From Kordia zhangzhouensis (GTDB lineage Bacteria; Bacteroidota; Bacteroidia; Flavobacteriales; Flavobacteriaceae), in NCBI RefSeq assembly GCF_001005305.1, contig NZ_LBMH01000003.1:310001-374000 (forward strand): a DNA stretch of 64,000 bases, given 5' to 3'. The position numbers and the translations under genes were made by a program. Shown piece by piece: positions 15,880 through 61,281 of this stretch. The notes under the pieces were generated by a model that worked only from the letters and a program-made list of their open reading frames with translations, did not search any database and was not told where the DNA came from. Position 1 is the stretch's first letter. The number at the start of each line of letters is the position of its first letter.

Positions 15880-15939
15880 CCACCTATACTATTTCTTTTA
15901 ATCTAAAGACCTCATTTAAACAAAGTTAAGACGTTAATT

Positions 15940-15954
15940 TACGGTATTCCCGTA
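15940..15954 (+). promoter_or_regulatory. TACGG-N5-CCGTA element upstream of precursor peptide 1
   Basis: A perfect dyad (TACGG TATTC CCGTA), preceded by GTTAATT, ends 62 bp before the ATG at 16016. A TA-rich stretch that could be the -7 region (TATATTTT, near 15975) lies about 20 bp downstream, so the dyad takes the -35/-33 position. The same element occurs at 16378 and 23718. Confidence 0.6.
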
Positions 15955-16015
15955 GAGATTTTCTATGTAGTTTTTATATTTTATCATAATAAAACAACTA
16001 ATAAAAACTTTTATT

Positions 16016-16225
16016 ATGAAAAAAAGAAACGTAAAGTCATTGAAACTTCATAAAAGTTCAGTGTCAAACTTAACAAATGAAAATGTAAAAGGTGGGGCAT
16101 ATTACACCAAATTTGATTGTCAAACTTTTTTAGACAGCCCTTGTACTTCGTTTATAGACGCATGTCCTTCTGCTTGGGTATGTCCATTGACTGAAAACCC
16201 GAGAGAATGTCCTTTTCCTATCTAA
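16016..16225 (+). CDS. Lanthipeptide-like RiPP precursor peptide 1
   Basis: A 69-residue peptide with a basic leader 'MKKRNVKSLKLHKSSVSNL', a Gly-Gly (residues 30-31) suitable for leader cleavage, and a core with five Cys and several Ser/Thr, including 'FIDACPSAWVCPL'. The leader pattern MKK-x-x-K-x-L-x-L-x-K-x-S-[IV]-S is the one seen in flavobacterial peptides annotated as class I lanthipeptides (from memory). It shares the 'IDACPSA' block with the next gene. No LanB, LanC, protease or transporter gene is nearby, so modification in trans is inferred and untested. An upstream TACGG dyad and a downstream terminator make it an independent unit. Confidence 0.75.
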   Translation: MKKRNVKSLKLHKSSVSNLTNENVKGGAYYTKFDCQTFLDSPCTSFIDACPSAWVCPLTENPRECPFPI

Positions 16226-16291
16226 AAGGAAAATTAAAAGATTTCTGTAAAACTTTTAATTATCAATCTCATAACTTTTTTTAAAAGAATG

Positions 16292-16317
16292 CCTAGTTTT
16301 TGACTAGGTTTTTTTTT
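16292..16317 (+). terminator. Terminator of precursor peptide 1
   Basis: A 6-bp stem CCTAGT/ACTAGG with a short loop is followed by nine T, separating the two peptide genes into single-gene units. Confidence 0.85.
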
Positions 16318-16377
16318 AATCAGTTTCCATTCTTATACAATCAATACGCAAACAATACGAAATGTAGAATTGTTAAT

Positions 16378-16392
16378 TACGGGATTTCCTTA
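16378..16392 (+). promoter_or_regulatory. TACGG-N5-CC(T)TA element upstream of precursor peptide 2
   Basis: TACGG GATTT CCTTA, preceded by GTTAAT, ends 58 bp before the ATG at 16450. It differs by one base in the second half-site from the perfect dyad at 15940 and sits at nearly the same distance from the start codon. Confidence 0.55.
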
Positions 16393-16449
16393 CTAAAAAC
16401 ATATTTAATTTTTCTATTTTAAGTAATTAAGAATCAAAAACTTGAACCC

Positions 16450-16680
16450 ATGAAAAAAAGAAATTTGAAATTACTAAAACTTCGTAAAAATTCTGTTTCT
16501 AAGTTAGGAGCTAATGTTTCTGGCGGATTAATAAGAATCACTGATATCCAAGTATGCGGATCACAAATTGATGCATGTCCTTCTGCTTTGGCATGTACTC
16601 AATTTACAGATTGTAAAACGTTTAACAATATGTGTGAGACACTTAATTATCCTTGTCAATCATTAGTTGAATGTTGGTAA
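16450..16680 (+). CDS. Lanthipeptide-like RiPP precursor peptide 2
   Basis: A 76-residue peptide with the leader 'MKKRNLKLLKLRKNSVSKL', a Gly-Gly at residues 25-26, and a core with seven Cys, including 'QIDACPSALACTQ', close to the block in precursor 1. The spread of Ser/Thr before Cys would allow several thioether rings if a dehydratase/cyclase acted on it. Leader similarity and the shared upstream element argue for a duplicated, co-regulated pair. A bidirectional terminator follows 10 nt after the stop. Confidence 0.75.
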   Translation: MKKRNLKLLKLRKNSVSKLGANVSGGLIRITDIQVCGSQIDACPSALACTQFTDCKTFNNMCETLNYPCQSLVECW

Positions 16681-16681
16681 C

Positions 16682-16710
16682 AAAAAAAGCGGGCTGATAA
16701 CCCGCTTTTA
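16682..16710. terminator. Bidirectional terminator between precursor 2 and the amidohydrolase gene
   Basis: A 9-bp perfect stem AAAAGCGGG/CCCGCTTTT (16685-16693 with 16701-16709) lies between convergent genes. Confidence 0.88.
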
Positions 16711-22161: not shown

Positions 22162-23661
22162 TTATTTCACAATCATTTTTTTACTAATCATAATCTCATT
22201 ATCGGAAACTAGGCTATATATAAACATTCCTTTTCCAATTTCATTTGAGCTAATAACCACCTGTCCTTTTTGGCTAGTTAAGTTATAATCTCGTACAAAC
22301 TTACCGGACATATCAAATACAGAGATTGTTGCTTTTGTATTTGCAGGCAATGTATAATTGATTGTGGTTTGATTTGTAAAAGGATTAGGTCTATTTTGTT
22401 CCATTGAAAAGCCAACTTCTGTTTCGTCTAGAGTTCCTAAGTTCTTTTTGCTTTCTGCCAATTCATTTTTGAGCTCTACAATTTCAGCTTCTAACAAAGT
22501 AACTTTTTCATTAAGACCTTTTAAGCTAGAGGTTAATACAGAAATCAGTCCTGTATAATTCACTGCTTTGTACTCATATGAACCTGTTTCTTTATTTTCT
22601 TTATCGTAAATAGGCTTGTTAATTGTAGTGACCAATTCAGGAAAAACCTGTTCTAAATCTTGAGCCAAGAATCCGTGTTGAAGTTGTGATGATAAGTTTA
22701 AATGTTCATTATCCTTGAATGTATAGGTAACTGCATTTAACTGTGACAGTTTTTCTAAAGCATTTTCTTCTGCTTTAATATTTTCTTTTAATTTTTTATC
22801 AGACACTGTAAACATTCCTGTTACAAACACATCTCCATTAAAATATCCCGCATATCTATTTGTAAGAGAAGCTGAACTACCATATATAGCTGCTCCAAAA
22901 CCTGTAGGATTGCTTACTACGCTACTTATAAATCCTTGAACACCATATGTACTTCCATTGGAACTTCCTGTTACCGAAGAACGAACTCCTGTACTTTGAA
23001 AAGCATCTGCAACACGAACATTTACACCTGTGTCACTATACGCTCCACCAGTATGATTCACATCTACTCCCGTTTTAATGTATCCAGAAATAGTATTGAT
23101 TGCTTTGATATCGGTAAAGTAACTTCCAGAAGTTGTGTTATTTCTAACAATTAATCCGGTTTTGGTACTTCCTGGCACTGTACTATAATCAATTCCCACC
23201 AACGGCTCATTAGAAGCTAGAGGTTTTCCAAAAAAAGTTCTTCCATCAAAAGTCATAGTCGCATTAAGGGTAGAACTTGTCGAAGTAAAACTTGTAGCGG
23301 CTCTAAACTCTAAGTTACTTTTGGTAGAATCTCCAATCCACTGAATTCGAGGATTGTCATCATTTACATCTTGATAACCTAAAGTAATTGCTCTCTCTGG
23401 TAACTGAAAACGTAAACCGTACACCGTTTGGCTTCCCGTATTAAGTCGCCCAAAAGAAAACCATCTACTGGTTGAAAAGTCAAAAGCTGATCCAGAATCT
23501 AACTGAGTAATCAACCCTTTACTAAATCTAAACATTTCTGTACCTCCAAACTGCTGTGGTATAGGAGTGGTAATTGAAGATTGAACAGGTCCTGCAGACT
23601 GATTTTGTGCAAAAATAAGACTGCTTGTAAATAACGCTAAAATAAAAGTAATTTTTTTCAT
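22162..23661 (-). CDS. Type IX-secreted protein with S74 endosialidase-chaperone domain
   Basis: A 499-residue exported protein. Signal peptide (residues 1-18, 'LIFAQ'); a long beta-rich region of phage-fibre style; a peptidase S74 intramolecular chaperone domain at about 285-400 ('VSDKKLKENIKAEENALEKL', 'LQHGFLAQDLEQVFPELV'); a coiled coil ('LTSSLKGLNEKVTLLEAEIV'); and a type IX sorting domain from about 425 ('MEQNRPNPFTNQTTINYTLP', ending 'ISKKMIVK'). S74 domains trimerise fibres and then cleave themselves off. Here the sorting domain lies after it, so self-cleavage would separate it from the passenger. Its promoter carries the TACGG element also found before two precursor peptides. Confidence 0.88.
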   Translation of the reverse strand: MKKITFILALFTSSLIFAQNQSAGPVQSSITTPIPQQFGGTEMFRFSKGLITQLDSGSAFDFSTSRWFSFGRLNTGSQTVYGLRFQLPERAITLGYQDVNDDNPRIQWIGDSTKSNLEFRAATSFTSTSSTLNATMTFDGRTFFGKPLASNEPLVGIDYSTVPGSTKTGLIVRNNTTSGSYFTDIKAINTISGYIKTGVDVNHTGGAYSDTGVNVRVADAFQSTGVRSSVTGSSNGSTYGVQGFISSVVSNPTGFGAAIYGSSASLTNRYAGYFNGDVFVTGMFTVSDKKLKENIKAEENALEKLSQLNAVTYTFKDNEHLNLSSQLQHGFLAQDLEQVFPELVTTINKPIYDKENKETGSYEYKAVNYTGLISVLTSSLKGLNEKVTLLEAEIVELKNELAESKKNLGTLDETEVGFSMEQNRPNPFTNQTTINYTLPANTKATISVFDMSGKFVRDYNLTSQKGQVVISSNEIGKGMFIYSLVSDNEIMISKKMIVK

Positions 23662-23957: not shown

Positions 23958-24152
23958 CTATTGTTTTTGAGTATTACAATAGTTTCTGCATGTATCATTT
24001 GTCAACTCTGTACAATTTGCACATGACCAAAGCGGGCAGGTCATTGTATCTGGGCAATCATTAGTATCTCTTGATAAACCTGCTTTAAAACTTTCCAAAT
24101 TAGAAATTGATTTCTTGTTTAAAGTCAATCCTTTAACATTTTGTTTTTTCAT
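23958..24152 (-). CDS. Lanthipeptide-like RiPP precursor peptide 3
   Basis: A 64-residue peptide with the leader 'MKKQNVKGLTLNKKSISNL' and a core with six Cys among Thr, Asn and Asp ('DCPDTMTCPLWSC', 'ANCTELTNDTCRNYC'). The leader has a single 'AGL' where the other precursors have Gly-Gly. Same leader family as peptides 1, 2 and 4. No modification enzyme is adjacent. Upstream there is no TACGG dyad; instead an 18-nt direct repeat lies at 24221-24279, so regulation may differ. Confidence 0.7.
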   Translation of the reverse strand: MKKQNVKGLTLNKKSISNLESFKAGLSRDTNDCPDTMTCPLWSCANCTELTNDTCRNYCNTQKQ

Positions 24153-24587: not shown

Positions 24588-25976
24588 ATGAATACAATTA
24601 AATCATATGTAGAAACGCATAAAAACCGTTTCATAGATGAACTCATCGAACTTTTAAAAATTCCCTCAATCAGTGCTGATCCAGCTTACACACAAGATGT
24701 TATAGATACTTCTACTGCCATAAAGAATAGCCTAGAAAAAGCTGGTTGTGACCACGTAGAAATTTGTGAAACACCTGGTTATCCTATTGTGTATGGACAT
24801 AAACATATCTCTGATCATCTTCCTACTGTCTTGGTATATGGGCATTATGACGTTCAACCACCTGATCCATTGGACCTTTGGGAAAGCGGTCCTTTTGAAC
24901 CCATTATTAAAAAAACTGAAATCCATCCAGAAGGTGCTATTTTCGCCCGAGGAGCATGTGACGATAAAGGACAAATGTACATGCACGTAAAGGCATTGGA
25001 GTTAATGAATGCTACTGGACAACTACCTTGTAACGTTAAGTTCATGATTGAAGGAGAAGAAGAAGTAGGCTCTGAAAGCTTAGCCTGGTTTGTAGAACGT
25101 AATCAAGAAAAACTAGCGAACGATGTCATTTTAATTTCTGACACAGGGATGATTAGTAATACACAACCATCTATAACCACTGGTTTACGAGGATTGAGCT
25201 ATGTTGAAGTGGAAGTTACAGGTCCTAATCGTGATTTACATTCAGGATTATATGGAGGTGCTGTAGCAAATCCAATTAATATTTTAACAAAAATGATTGC
25301 ATCTTTACACGATGAAAACAATCGCATAACCATTCCGGGATTTTATGACAAAGTGGAAGAACTATCTACTGAAGAACGTGCCGAAATGGCGAAAGCCCCT
25401 TTTTCATTAGAAGAATATAAAAGAGCTCTTGATATTGATGCTGTTTATGGAGAAGCTGGTTACTCAACCAATGAACGAAACTCTATTCGCCCTACATTAG
25501 ATGTAAATGGAATTTGGGGAGGATATACAGGTGAAGGTGCCAAAACTGTAATTGCTAGTAAGGCATACGCTAAAATTTCAATGCGTTTAGTCCCTAATCA
25601 AAATTGGAAAGAAATCACAGAATTATTTAAAAATCATTTTGAAAGTATTGCTCCTGCTGGTGTAAAAGTAAAAGTAAAACCGCATCATGGCGGACAAGGT
25701 TATGTAACTCCTATTGATAATATTGGTTACCAAGCCGCCAGCAAAGCATATGAAGATACCTTTGGCGTTACTCCTATTCCACAACGTTCAGGAGGAAGTA
25801 TTCCTATCGTAGCATTGTTTGAAAAAGAACTCAAAAGTAAAACTATTTTAATGGGATTCGGATTGAATAGTGATGCTATTCATTCACCAAATGAGCATTT
25901 TGGAATTTTCAACTATCTCAAGGGTATTGAAACAATTCCACTATTCTACAAATATTTTACAGAACTTTCCAAATAA
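24588..25976 (+). CDS. M20 family dipeptidase
   Basis: A 462-residue cytoplasmic zinc peptidase of the carnosinase/DUG1-like M20 group. Metal-site motifs are visible: 'VYGHYDVQPPDPLDLWE' (first His and Asp), 'RGACDDKGQMYMH' (bridging Asp), 'MIEGEEEVGSESL' (catalytic Glu pair), 'ISDTGM', and a late His in 'DAIHSPNEHFGIFNYLKG'. The dimerisation lid is around residues 195-330. It probably cleaves dipeptides from peptide uptake or protein turnover. Length is normal; single gene with its own terminator. Confidence 0.93.
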   Translation: MNTIKSYVETHKNRFIDELIELLKIPSISADPAYTQDVIDTSTAIKNSLEKAGCDHVEICETPGYPIVYGHKHISDHLPTVLVYGHYDVQPPDPLDLWESGPFEPIIKKTEIHPEGAIFARGACDDKGQMYMHVKALELMNATGQLPCNVKFMIEGEEEVGSESLAWFVERNQEKLANDVILISDTGMISNTQPSITTGLRGLSYVEVEVTGPNRDLHSGLYGGAVANPINILTKMIASLHDENNRITIPGFYDKVEELSTEERAEMAKAPFSLEEYKRALDIDAVYGEAGYSTNERNSIRPTLDVNGIWGGYTGEGAKTVIASKAYAKISMRLVPNQNWKEITELFKNHFESIAPAGVKVKVKPHHGGQGYVTPIDNIGYQAASKAYEDTFGVTPIPQRSGGSIPIVALFEKELKSKTILMGFGLNSDAIHSPNEHFGIFNYLKGIETIPLFYKYFTELSK

Positions 25977-58428: not shown

Positions 58429-58620
58429 TTAAGAAGCCTCACACATAGGTCGGTGTACGGAAGTACCACAACCTTCGGCCATAAATGTAACTGGTTCTTT
58501 GTCTTGATCGACTGGCTTATCACCTCCATCATTAGGAGCTGCTCCACCCAATACAAGACTTGCTGGCAACGTTGAGATTTTCTCTTTGATAAAAGTCAAC
58601 TTTTTAATTTGCTTTTTCAT
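58429..58620 (-). CDS. Lanthipeptide-like RiPP precursor peptide 4
   Basis: A 63-residue peptide: leader 'MKKQIKKLTFIKEKISTLPA', Gly-Gly at residues 25-26 ('LVLGGAAPND'), then an Asp/Pro-rich stretch and only two Cys near the end ('EGCGTSVHRPMC'). The leader fits the K-x-L-x-[LF]-x-K-x-x-I-S pattern of the other three but is less basic, and the core differs completely. It may carry one ring at most. No enzyme genes nearby; no TACGG element upstream. Confidence 0.62.
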   Translation of the reverse strand: MKKQIKKLTFIKEKISTLPASLVLGGAAPNDGGDKPVDQDKEPVTFMAEGCGTSVHRPMCEAS

Positions 58621-61266: not shown

Positions 61267-61281
61267 TACGGTTTTACCGTA
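61267..61281. promoter_or_regulatory. Orphan TACGG-N5-CCGTA dyad
   Basis: TACGG TTTTA CCGTA, perfect half-sites identical to the element before precursor peptide 1. On the reverse strand it faces the orphan terminator at 61122, giving a possible transcript of about 100 nt. Confidence 0.55.

Follow-up and report, generated by a model that had tools for sequence, protein, structure and literature searches.

The prochlorosins of marine picocyanobacteria are made by one promiscuous enzyme, ProcM, which serves up to 83 precursors per genome (PMC10783134; PMC7268733). The class I systems of Bacteroidetes, as outlined in the portions of PMC7268733 devoted to them, combine a leader of the form LxLxKx5L and a GG site with a C39 protease and a split LanB as in pinensin. 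In the sections of the TrRiPP survey that bear on these bacteria (PMC11118758), Kordia is described as RiPP-rich, up to 176 precursors are counted in a Bacteroidota genome, LanC and nucleotidyltransferase genes are reported beside Kordia precursors, and precursors without neighboring enzymes are suggested to use distant, tolerant enzymes like ProcM. The distant-enzyme idea for orphan precursors is therefore already published (PMC11118758).

Here we describe a pair of small ORFs beside lspA in Kordia zhangzhouensis, a marine member of the Flavobacteriaceae (4.03 Mb genome, 43 contigs). The window is the whole stretch of DNA that was analyzed, 64,000 nt from C22:310001-374000. From sequence comparisons, we regard it as likely that the pair encodes class I lanthipeptide-type precursors belonging to a dispersed family of some 110-130 members, that these are served in trans, and that the pair is activated via a palindromic promoter element.

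RESULTS

Two precursor-like ORFs beside lspA

As shown in Table 1, the two ORFs picked out by a sequence-only reading of the window lie at the coordinates it gave and have the leaders, Gly-Gly sites and cores that it ascribed to them, with an IDACPSA block in both cores. Third and fourth precursors of this leader type, which it had placed elsewhere in the window, both exist and are both matched by a leader HMM (described below) that finds these four peptides and no other in the window; all four are among its 79 training rows. The leader test for Bacteroidetes class I precursors, LxLxKx5L, is matched by ORF 1, ORF 2 and the third precursor, and not by the fourth. The leader is followed by GG in ORF 1, ORF 2 and the fourth precursor and by AG in the third, and the cores of ORF 1 and ORF 2 contain Cys and Ser/Thr residues able to form rings. 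The NCBIfam model for the class I lanthipeptide leader L1a (NF038153, cut-off 22 bits) gave no match to ORF 1 or ORF 2 at E ≤ 1 and scored the third and fourth precursors at 18.7 and 14.9 bits, both under the cut-off; a Pfam and NCBIfam scan of the four window peptides returned none above cut-off.

A LanB or LanC gene in the same cluster is not found: contig C22 has no match, and the sole LanB N-domain is on contig C12. The earlier statement that the window has no LanB/LanC-like, radical SAM, protease or exporter gene holds for LanB, LanC and C39 (every PF05147, PF04738 or PF03412 match falls on contig C1 or C12; within the window the Pfam scan covered 10 proteins and the four peptides). For proteases it is literally wrong, because LspA adjoins the pair and an M20 peptidase lies at 24588, but neither is a GG-leader protease. 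The inverted repeat behind ORF 2 has no T run in the ORF 2 direction and is terminator-like only for the opposite strand.

Table 1. Coordinates of the ORFs, candidate regulatory elements and associated loci (window positions unless a contig is named)
Feature	Coordinates	Strand	Description
ORF 1	16016..16225	+	69 aa; leader MKKRNVKSLKLHKSSVSNL.., LxLxKx5L; GG site; core ..CTSFIDACPSAWVCPLTENPRECPFPI
ORF 2	16450..16680	+	76 aa; leader MKKRNLKLLKLRKNSVSKL.., LxLxKx5L; GG site; core ..CGSQIDACPSALACTQFTDCKTFNNMCETLNYPCQSLVECW
Third precursor	23958..24152	-	leader type in common with ORF 1 and ORF 2; AG replaces GG; no TACGG promoter score >8
Fourth precursor	58429..58620	-	relaxed leader (LxFxKx5L); GG; only two Cys; no TACGG promoter score >8
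Palindrome TACGGTATTCCCGTA, proposed activator site of ORF 1	15940..15954	+	exact TACGG-N5-CCGTA; top promoter-matrix score in window, 36.8
-7 box TATTTTA, ORF 1	15977..15983	+	37 nt from palindrome start
Palindrome variant TACGGGATTTCCTTA, proposed activator site of ORF 2	16378..16392	+	one mismatch; matrix score 29.9
-7 box TATTTTA, ORF 2	16415..16421	+	palindrome spacing as for ORF 1
Intrinsic terminator-like hairpin and T run, 3' of ORF 1	16291..16309	+	terminator scan
Strong inverted repeat, terminator-like, between ORF 2 and convergent amidohydrolase gene	16685..16709		terminator scan, minus strand only
Enzyme locus L098	C12:8001-28000		LanB/LanC/C39 genes at C12:15-26 kb; Pfam domains
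Second GG-leader family	L183, L185, L177, L178, L184, L192 and others		

A large, scattered family of leaders

A DNA pattern derived from the leaders matches the genome at 21 places, three of them in the window, and at none when the pattern is read backwards; this count is independent of the leader HMM. The HMM was built from 79 peptides of this genome, and with the best 150 of 204 first-look candidates scored it gives at least 133 matches genome-wide at E ≤ 10 and at least 113 at E ≤ 1e-3, counts that come from a model trained on the genome's own peptides and run on Kordia genomes. When matches at most 3 kb apart are grouped, the 113 form 77 clusters, of which 54 are single genes, spread over 16 contigs; one match has an in-frame TAG (contig C39, position 188486). 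The prediction of further leaders elsewhere in the genome is thus borne out. The picture of a dispersed family stands as well, at a scale that the sequence-only reading, with four precursors versus over 110, had set too low.

The loci fetched from this genome yielded 131 peptides with an hmmsearch E-value of at most 0.05, 124 of them with E ≤ 1e-3; at least one of the 131 looks false (it starts MEIEKEL). Strict LxLxKx5L is present in 65 of the 131 leaders and the relaxed form in 129. Each of 11 Kordia genomes, this one included, has at least 121-150 matches to the leader HMM (E ≤ 0.01, best 150 candidates scored per genome). NF038153 lists 84 matches genome-wide at E ≤ 10, with 12 of the 84 over the cut-off, two of them only with neighbors in frame; at E ≤ 10 it also matches in five of 14 control genomes, where every score stays under the cut-off. 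At C22:634.5-635.0 kb (L101:4477-5023), two tandem leader-type precursors have cores that are strings of short CP-type Cys units, for example CPINTRLN CPDTLI.. and CPQTLL CPRTVLN...

Cys makes up 0.1% of the leaders and 11.5% of the cores of the 131 peptides, Ser plus Thr accounts for 19% of the cores, and 127 cores contain two or more Cys. Among 96 less-redundant cores, with sixteen offsets tested and repeats within one peptide non-independent, Ser/Thr is found at -5 from Cys at a frequency of 0.348 versus 0.220 in shuffles (z 7.0). It is likewise enriched two residues after Cys (z 6.2) and depleted at +1, +5 and +6 (z -6.3, -3.9 and -3.6), and Cys-Cys spacings of 6-8 show an about twofold excess. 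The excess at -5 is a statistical hint of the pattern expected from a chain of Ser/Thr-x4-Cys rings. In the window, ORF 2 (seven Cys) has five such units, the first beginning at Thr31; ORF 1, where Ser/Thr stands at -5 for only one of five Cys, and the third precursor have one each, and the fourth has none.

Conservation of the pair in Kordia

We compared the lspA loci of eight named Kordia records, in which LspA is 79-83% identical to that of the window; the remaining full-length LspA matches have at most 59% identity, and two partial ones 69% and 71%. Peptides of the IDACPSA/IDACPTA type lie downstream of lspA in all eight loci. In seven loci the peptides were identified with a leader regular expression, which gives one to three of them per locus, and in the eighth (L110, IDACPTA) the peptide was found outside it. 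Two core families recur, CTS[FVI][IV]D[ADN]CP[ST]AW.. and CGSQIDACPSAL[AS]CT..CQSLV[ED]C.

For the 11 sequences of the ORF 1 family, which include paralogues, summing over every pair gives a pN/pS of 0.30 in the leader and 0.41 in the core, and for the five of the ORF 2 family, likewise summed, it is 0.49 and 0.26, all four being rough ratios because pairs are non-independent and pS is near saturation. Judged by these ratios, the cores of ORF 1 and ORF 2 are under purifying selection, with a core tighter than the leader in the ORF 2 family and looser in the ORF 1 family. Because lspA-linked homologues are present in 8/8 Kordia and the cores are held by selection, we consider ORF 1 and ORF 2 to be real genes. 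Hypervariable cores are rejected for the pair by the same core values, though not for the family. The suggestion of diverse cores under a conserved leader therefore describes paralogues well, but not the ORF 1 and ORF 2 cores, which are conserved between species.

Among 31 leader-type peptides of other Kordia, all from loci reached via lspA or the palindrome, 13 have a core counterpart of at least 60% identity in this genome. Nine of the 13 belong to the ORF 1 and ORF 2 families; outside these families the figure is 4 of 16, one of the 16 being a false hit. Because so few of the relatives' other peptides have a close counterpart here, the Kordia precursor repertoire turns over fast. The stable cores of ORF 1 and ORF 2 argue for a fixed function and not a random library, an argument that is limited to these two and cannot be said to extend to the whole family. 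The function of the prochlorosins is left open in the relevant parts of PMC10783134.

A palindromic element at a fixed distance from the -7 box

Visual inspection of the DNA before ORF 1 and ORF 2 first revealed a palindrome, TACGG-N5-CCGTA, which was then tested against a control pattern; the sequence-only reading had not included this shared promoter element. Each ORF has a separate promoter, in which the palindrome lies 72-76 nt before the ATG and is followed by TATTTTA, which we take to be a Bacteroidetes-type -7 box (consensus TAnnTTTG). These are the only window sites with a promoter-matrix score >8. Exact 9-mer enrichment upstream of the precursors gave AT-rich words only and no motif. 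In an alignment of 52 palindrome sites, which were selected by an ATG at 60-79 nt and contain a few chance sites, T, A, T and T occur at +37, +38, +41 and +42 in 46, 46, 47 and 48 sites, respectively. Because the -7 box sits at a fixed 37-nt spacing, we infer that the center of the palindrome is near -41, which is the position of class II activators, and the element looks like a class II activator site.

Another exact palindrome in the window, TACGGTTTTACCGTA at 61267-61281, was considered as a third promoter and rejected, its score not exceeding 8. It lies about 330 bp downstream of an HTH gene and has no peptide gene after it.

Repressors bind palindromes too, and the terminator scan flagged 15938-15956 as a hairpin, so that the element could instead be a repressor operator or an RNA hairpin or terminator of the upstream gene. 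In several Kordia genomes, however, its spacing to the -7 box and to the ATG (62-76 nt) is preserved although the genes upstream are unrelated, a pattern like that of class II activated promoters, whereas a terminator should keep its distance to the upstream gene instead. We find the operator and terminator readings doubtful and favor a site for an activator.

The exact palindrome occurs at 20 sites in this genome versus one for the control pattern, and 242 times in 11 Kordia genomes versus 15. Fourteen of the 20 sites lie 62-76 nt before a leader-type peptide (eight of the lanthipeptide leader type and six of a second type, classed by reading); the other six do not, and two of these are inside coding sequence. 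Classed by eye in two other Kordia genomes with starts 35 to 214 nt away considered, 19 of 34 palindromes precede a leader-type peptide (9/16 in G002, all sites examined, and 10/18 in G003, from a total of 27 sites) and 15 do not. The distance from palindrome start to ATG is 66-72 nt there, and two of the 19 peptides end in KG, not GG. A promoter matrix built from 24 sites in other Kordia genomes was applied to the 131 lanthipeptide-type peptides of the present genome. Its score is above zero for 24 of them, with sites at 62-76 nt, and for 20 of these it exceeds the maximum of 6000 background stretches taken from the window after masking of the two known sites; the remaining 107 are not above zero, some of them being downstream genes in operons.

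The second type is a family of about 20 Cys-rich GG-leader peptides (MLKxIxxLxG...QRNIxGG) that often have a TACGG promoter; the five that were scanned against NCBIfam gave nothing over cut-off. Eleven of the 20 score above zero for the promoter, with 6 of 13 non-seeds as the fair figure because five of the seven seed rows came from motif sites. Beyond the genus, palindrome and -7 box occur together in 22 of 149 Flavobacteriaceae genomes (one per genus, this one included), with 36 matches versus 10 for the control and 31 versus 10 without this genome, and the TACGG promoter element may be older than Kordia. The regulon is not purely peptides, because two G002 sites lie at a like distance before other proteins, one S74/T9SS-like (L220) and one lipoprotein-like (L224).

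The L220 palindrome (L220:713) is exact and 73 nt before its gene, and the start of the encoded protein resembles that of an S74/T9SS-tail protein in the window (22162-23661), whose own gene has no promoter match over score 8.

The distribution of the element raises the possibility of a genus-wide Kordia regulon in which one activator, acting through the class II TACGG promoter, would induce dozens of scattered and chemically different secreted peptides at once, drawn from both leader families; we see about equal weight for and against it. If it exists, Kordia would release a coordinated cocktail of secreted peptides through a promoter module placed before single genes and not through clustering, and the lanthipeptide-type members would share a single, distant maturation line.

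Enzymes available in trans

The trans proposal would find no footing in a genome with no dehydratase or cyclase. Our search of the rest of the genome for these enzymes and for C39 found a LanB N-domain, a LanB C-domain, LanC and a C39-ABC exporter together on contig C12. This locus, L098, encodes a sigma-70 region 2 protein, a TPR protein, LanC, the LanB N-domain protein, a separate LanB C-domain protein, a TPR-AraC regulator, HlyD and the C39-ABC exporter, and it also holds two small precursor-like ORFs between genes. Its LanB is split into PF04738 and PF14028, and the separate LanC carries WCxG and CHG motifs, the zinc-site signatures of NisC. No TACGG site within one mismatch is present in L098, so that control of this locus by the palindrome was rejected and the enzymes and the ORF 1/ORF 2 pair are not visibly co-regulated.

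The LanB N-domain has one match in this genome and exactly one in each of the 11 Kordia genomes. Set against the at least 121-150 leader matches of each, these gene counts fit a one-enzyme, many-precursor pattern. One of the 113 leader matches lies within 15 kb of LanB, and a second candidate, at C12:21970, has an E-value of 0.0115. The idea of distributed precursors with a distant enzyme set acting in trans thus gains support from 113 scattered leader matches versus a single LanB N-domain, and the scattered peptides probably rely on one distant ring-forming enzyme set.

The peptides need not all be matured by a single locus, because the genome has two further LanC-like genes and a second, weak C39 match (26 bits, cut-off 22) in a 518-aa protein at C1:64234. 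Several enzyme sets might then serve the precursors, including loci at C12:70-72 kb (LanC-like/nucleotidyltransferase) and C1:107-110 kb (HopA1/phosphotransferase/LanC). Both loci exist, the first adjoins a leader-type precursor, and the weak C39 protein lies between two TACGG-promoter peptide genes. However, the LanC-like protein at C12:70 kb is without WCxG and CHG, and the locus at C1:107 kb adjoins a quite different, repetitive protein. We consider service by several sets rather unlikely and prefer the single set of L098.

The three loci have the following organization. At C1:63.8-66.1 kb (L178:1307-3610), the 518-aa protein, with its weak C39 and weak type I secretion matches, is flanked by one second-family and one lanthipeptide-type peptide, each with an exact TACGG palindrome; the unit is possibly a separate small export unit. 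The LanC relative at C12:70-72 kb (L099:10360-12447), which adjoins a nucleotidyltransferase-domain protein as well as the precursor, has a possible non-cyclase role. At C1:106-110 kb (L100:7064-11476), a 310-aa repetitive Cys-rich protein (GPTGTQGCT repeats) is followed by a PF01636 phosphotransferase, a HopA1-domain protein and a LanC that has the WCxG and CHG motifs. The pertinent passages of PMC7794033 put forward a HopA1/phosphotransferase pair as the core enzymes of class V lanthipeptides, and by analogy the repetitive protein is a possible multi-core precursor of the class V kind in Bacteroidota.

The presence of a C39-ABC exporter, together with a TACGG promoter that also precedes the second GG-leader family, which has no obvious link to lanthionine enzymes, would also suit the export of unmodified GG-leader peptides as disulfide-bonded bacteriocins or signals. 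We think this improbable. The leader is of the LxLxKx5L type described for Bacteroidetes class I LanAs in the portions of PMC7268733 cited above, unlike that of the second family; disulfides would give no evident reason for where Ser/Thr stands with respect to Cys; and LanB is kept in all 11 Kordia genomes. Ring formation by LanB and LanC remains the reading that we carry forward.

DISCUSSION

In the mechanism that we propose, an activator would bind TACGG-N5-CCGTA centered about 41 bp before the transcription start and turn on ORF 1 and ORF 2 along with about 20 further leader-type genes and about 11 members of the second GG-leader family. The LxLxKx5L leader would bring the lanthipeptide-type peptides to the single split LanB (PF04738 plus PF14028) and the LanC of contig C12, which would dehydrate Ser/Thr and close thioether rings, often in Ser/Thr-x4-Cys units. 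The C39-ABC exporter beside LanB would cut after Gly-Gly and export the product with HlyD.

Enzyme-first genome mining would miss nearly all of this family, since only one or two of over 110 precursors are near LanB. If the trans model holds, Kordia should be useful for engineering and would be, to our knowledge, the largest class I one-enzyme, many-substrate system. The promoter offers a direct handle on the timing of mixed cyclic-peptide release by a marine bacterium.

A partial literature search, mainly of open papers and coarse for the palindrome, found neither an account of a single LanB serving scattered class I precursors nor a description of the TACGG promoter, which is weak evidence of absence. 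Relative to the literature searched, the new elements are the single LanB facing more than 100 scattered class I precursors and the TACGG promoter, and not a new kind of molecule. The sections of the TrRiPP survey that deal with Kordia do not describe one LanB for the scattered set or a shared promoter (PMC11118758). The Bacteroidetes class I lanthipeptides and pinensins have the leader motif, GG site, C39 protease and split LanB in common with Kordia, but their precursors, in the examples given in the portions of PMC7268733 on these systems, are inside the enzyme clusters, whereas the Kordia pair is off every contig with LanB, LanC or C39.

The likeness to the prochlorosins lies in a conserved leader ending in GG and in many precursors encoded far from a single enzyme, as set out in parts of PMC10783134 and PMC7268733. 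ProcM, however, is a class II enzyme acting on Nif11-type leaders, whereas Kordia has a class I split LanB with LanC and LxLxKx5L leaders, over 110 leader matches and, in a subset, a shared promoter element. By this comparison, the Kordia system may be prochlorosin-like in its working without being a prochlorosin, set apart by PF04738, PF14028 and LanC and by the type of its leader.
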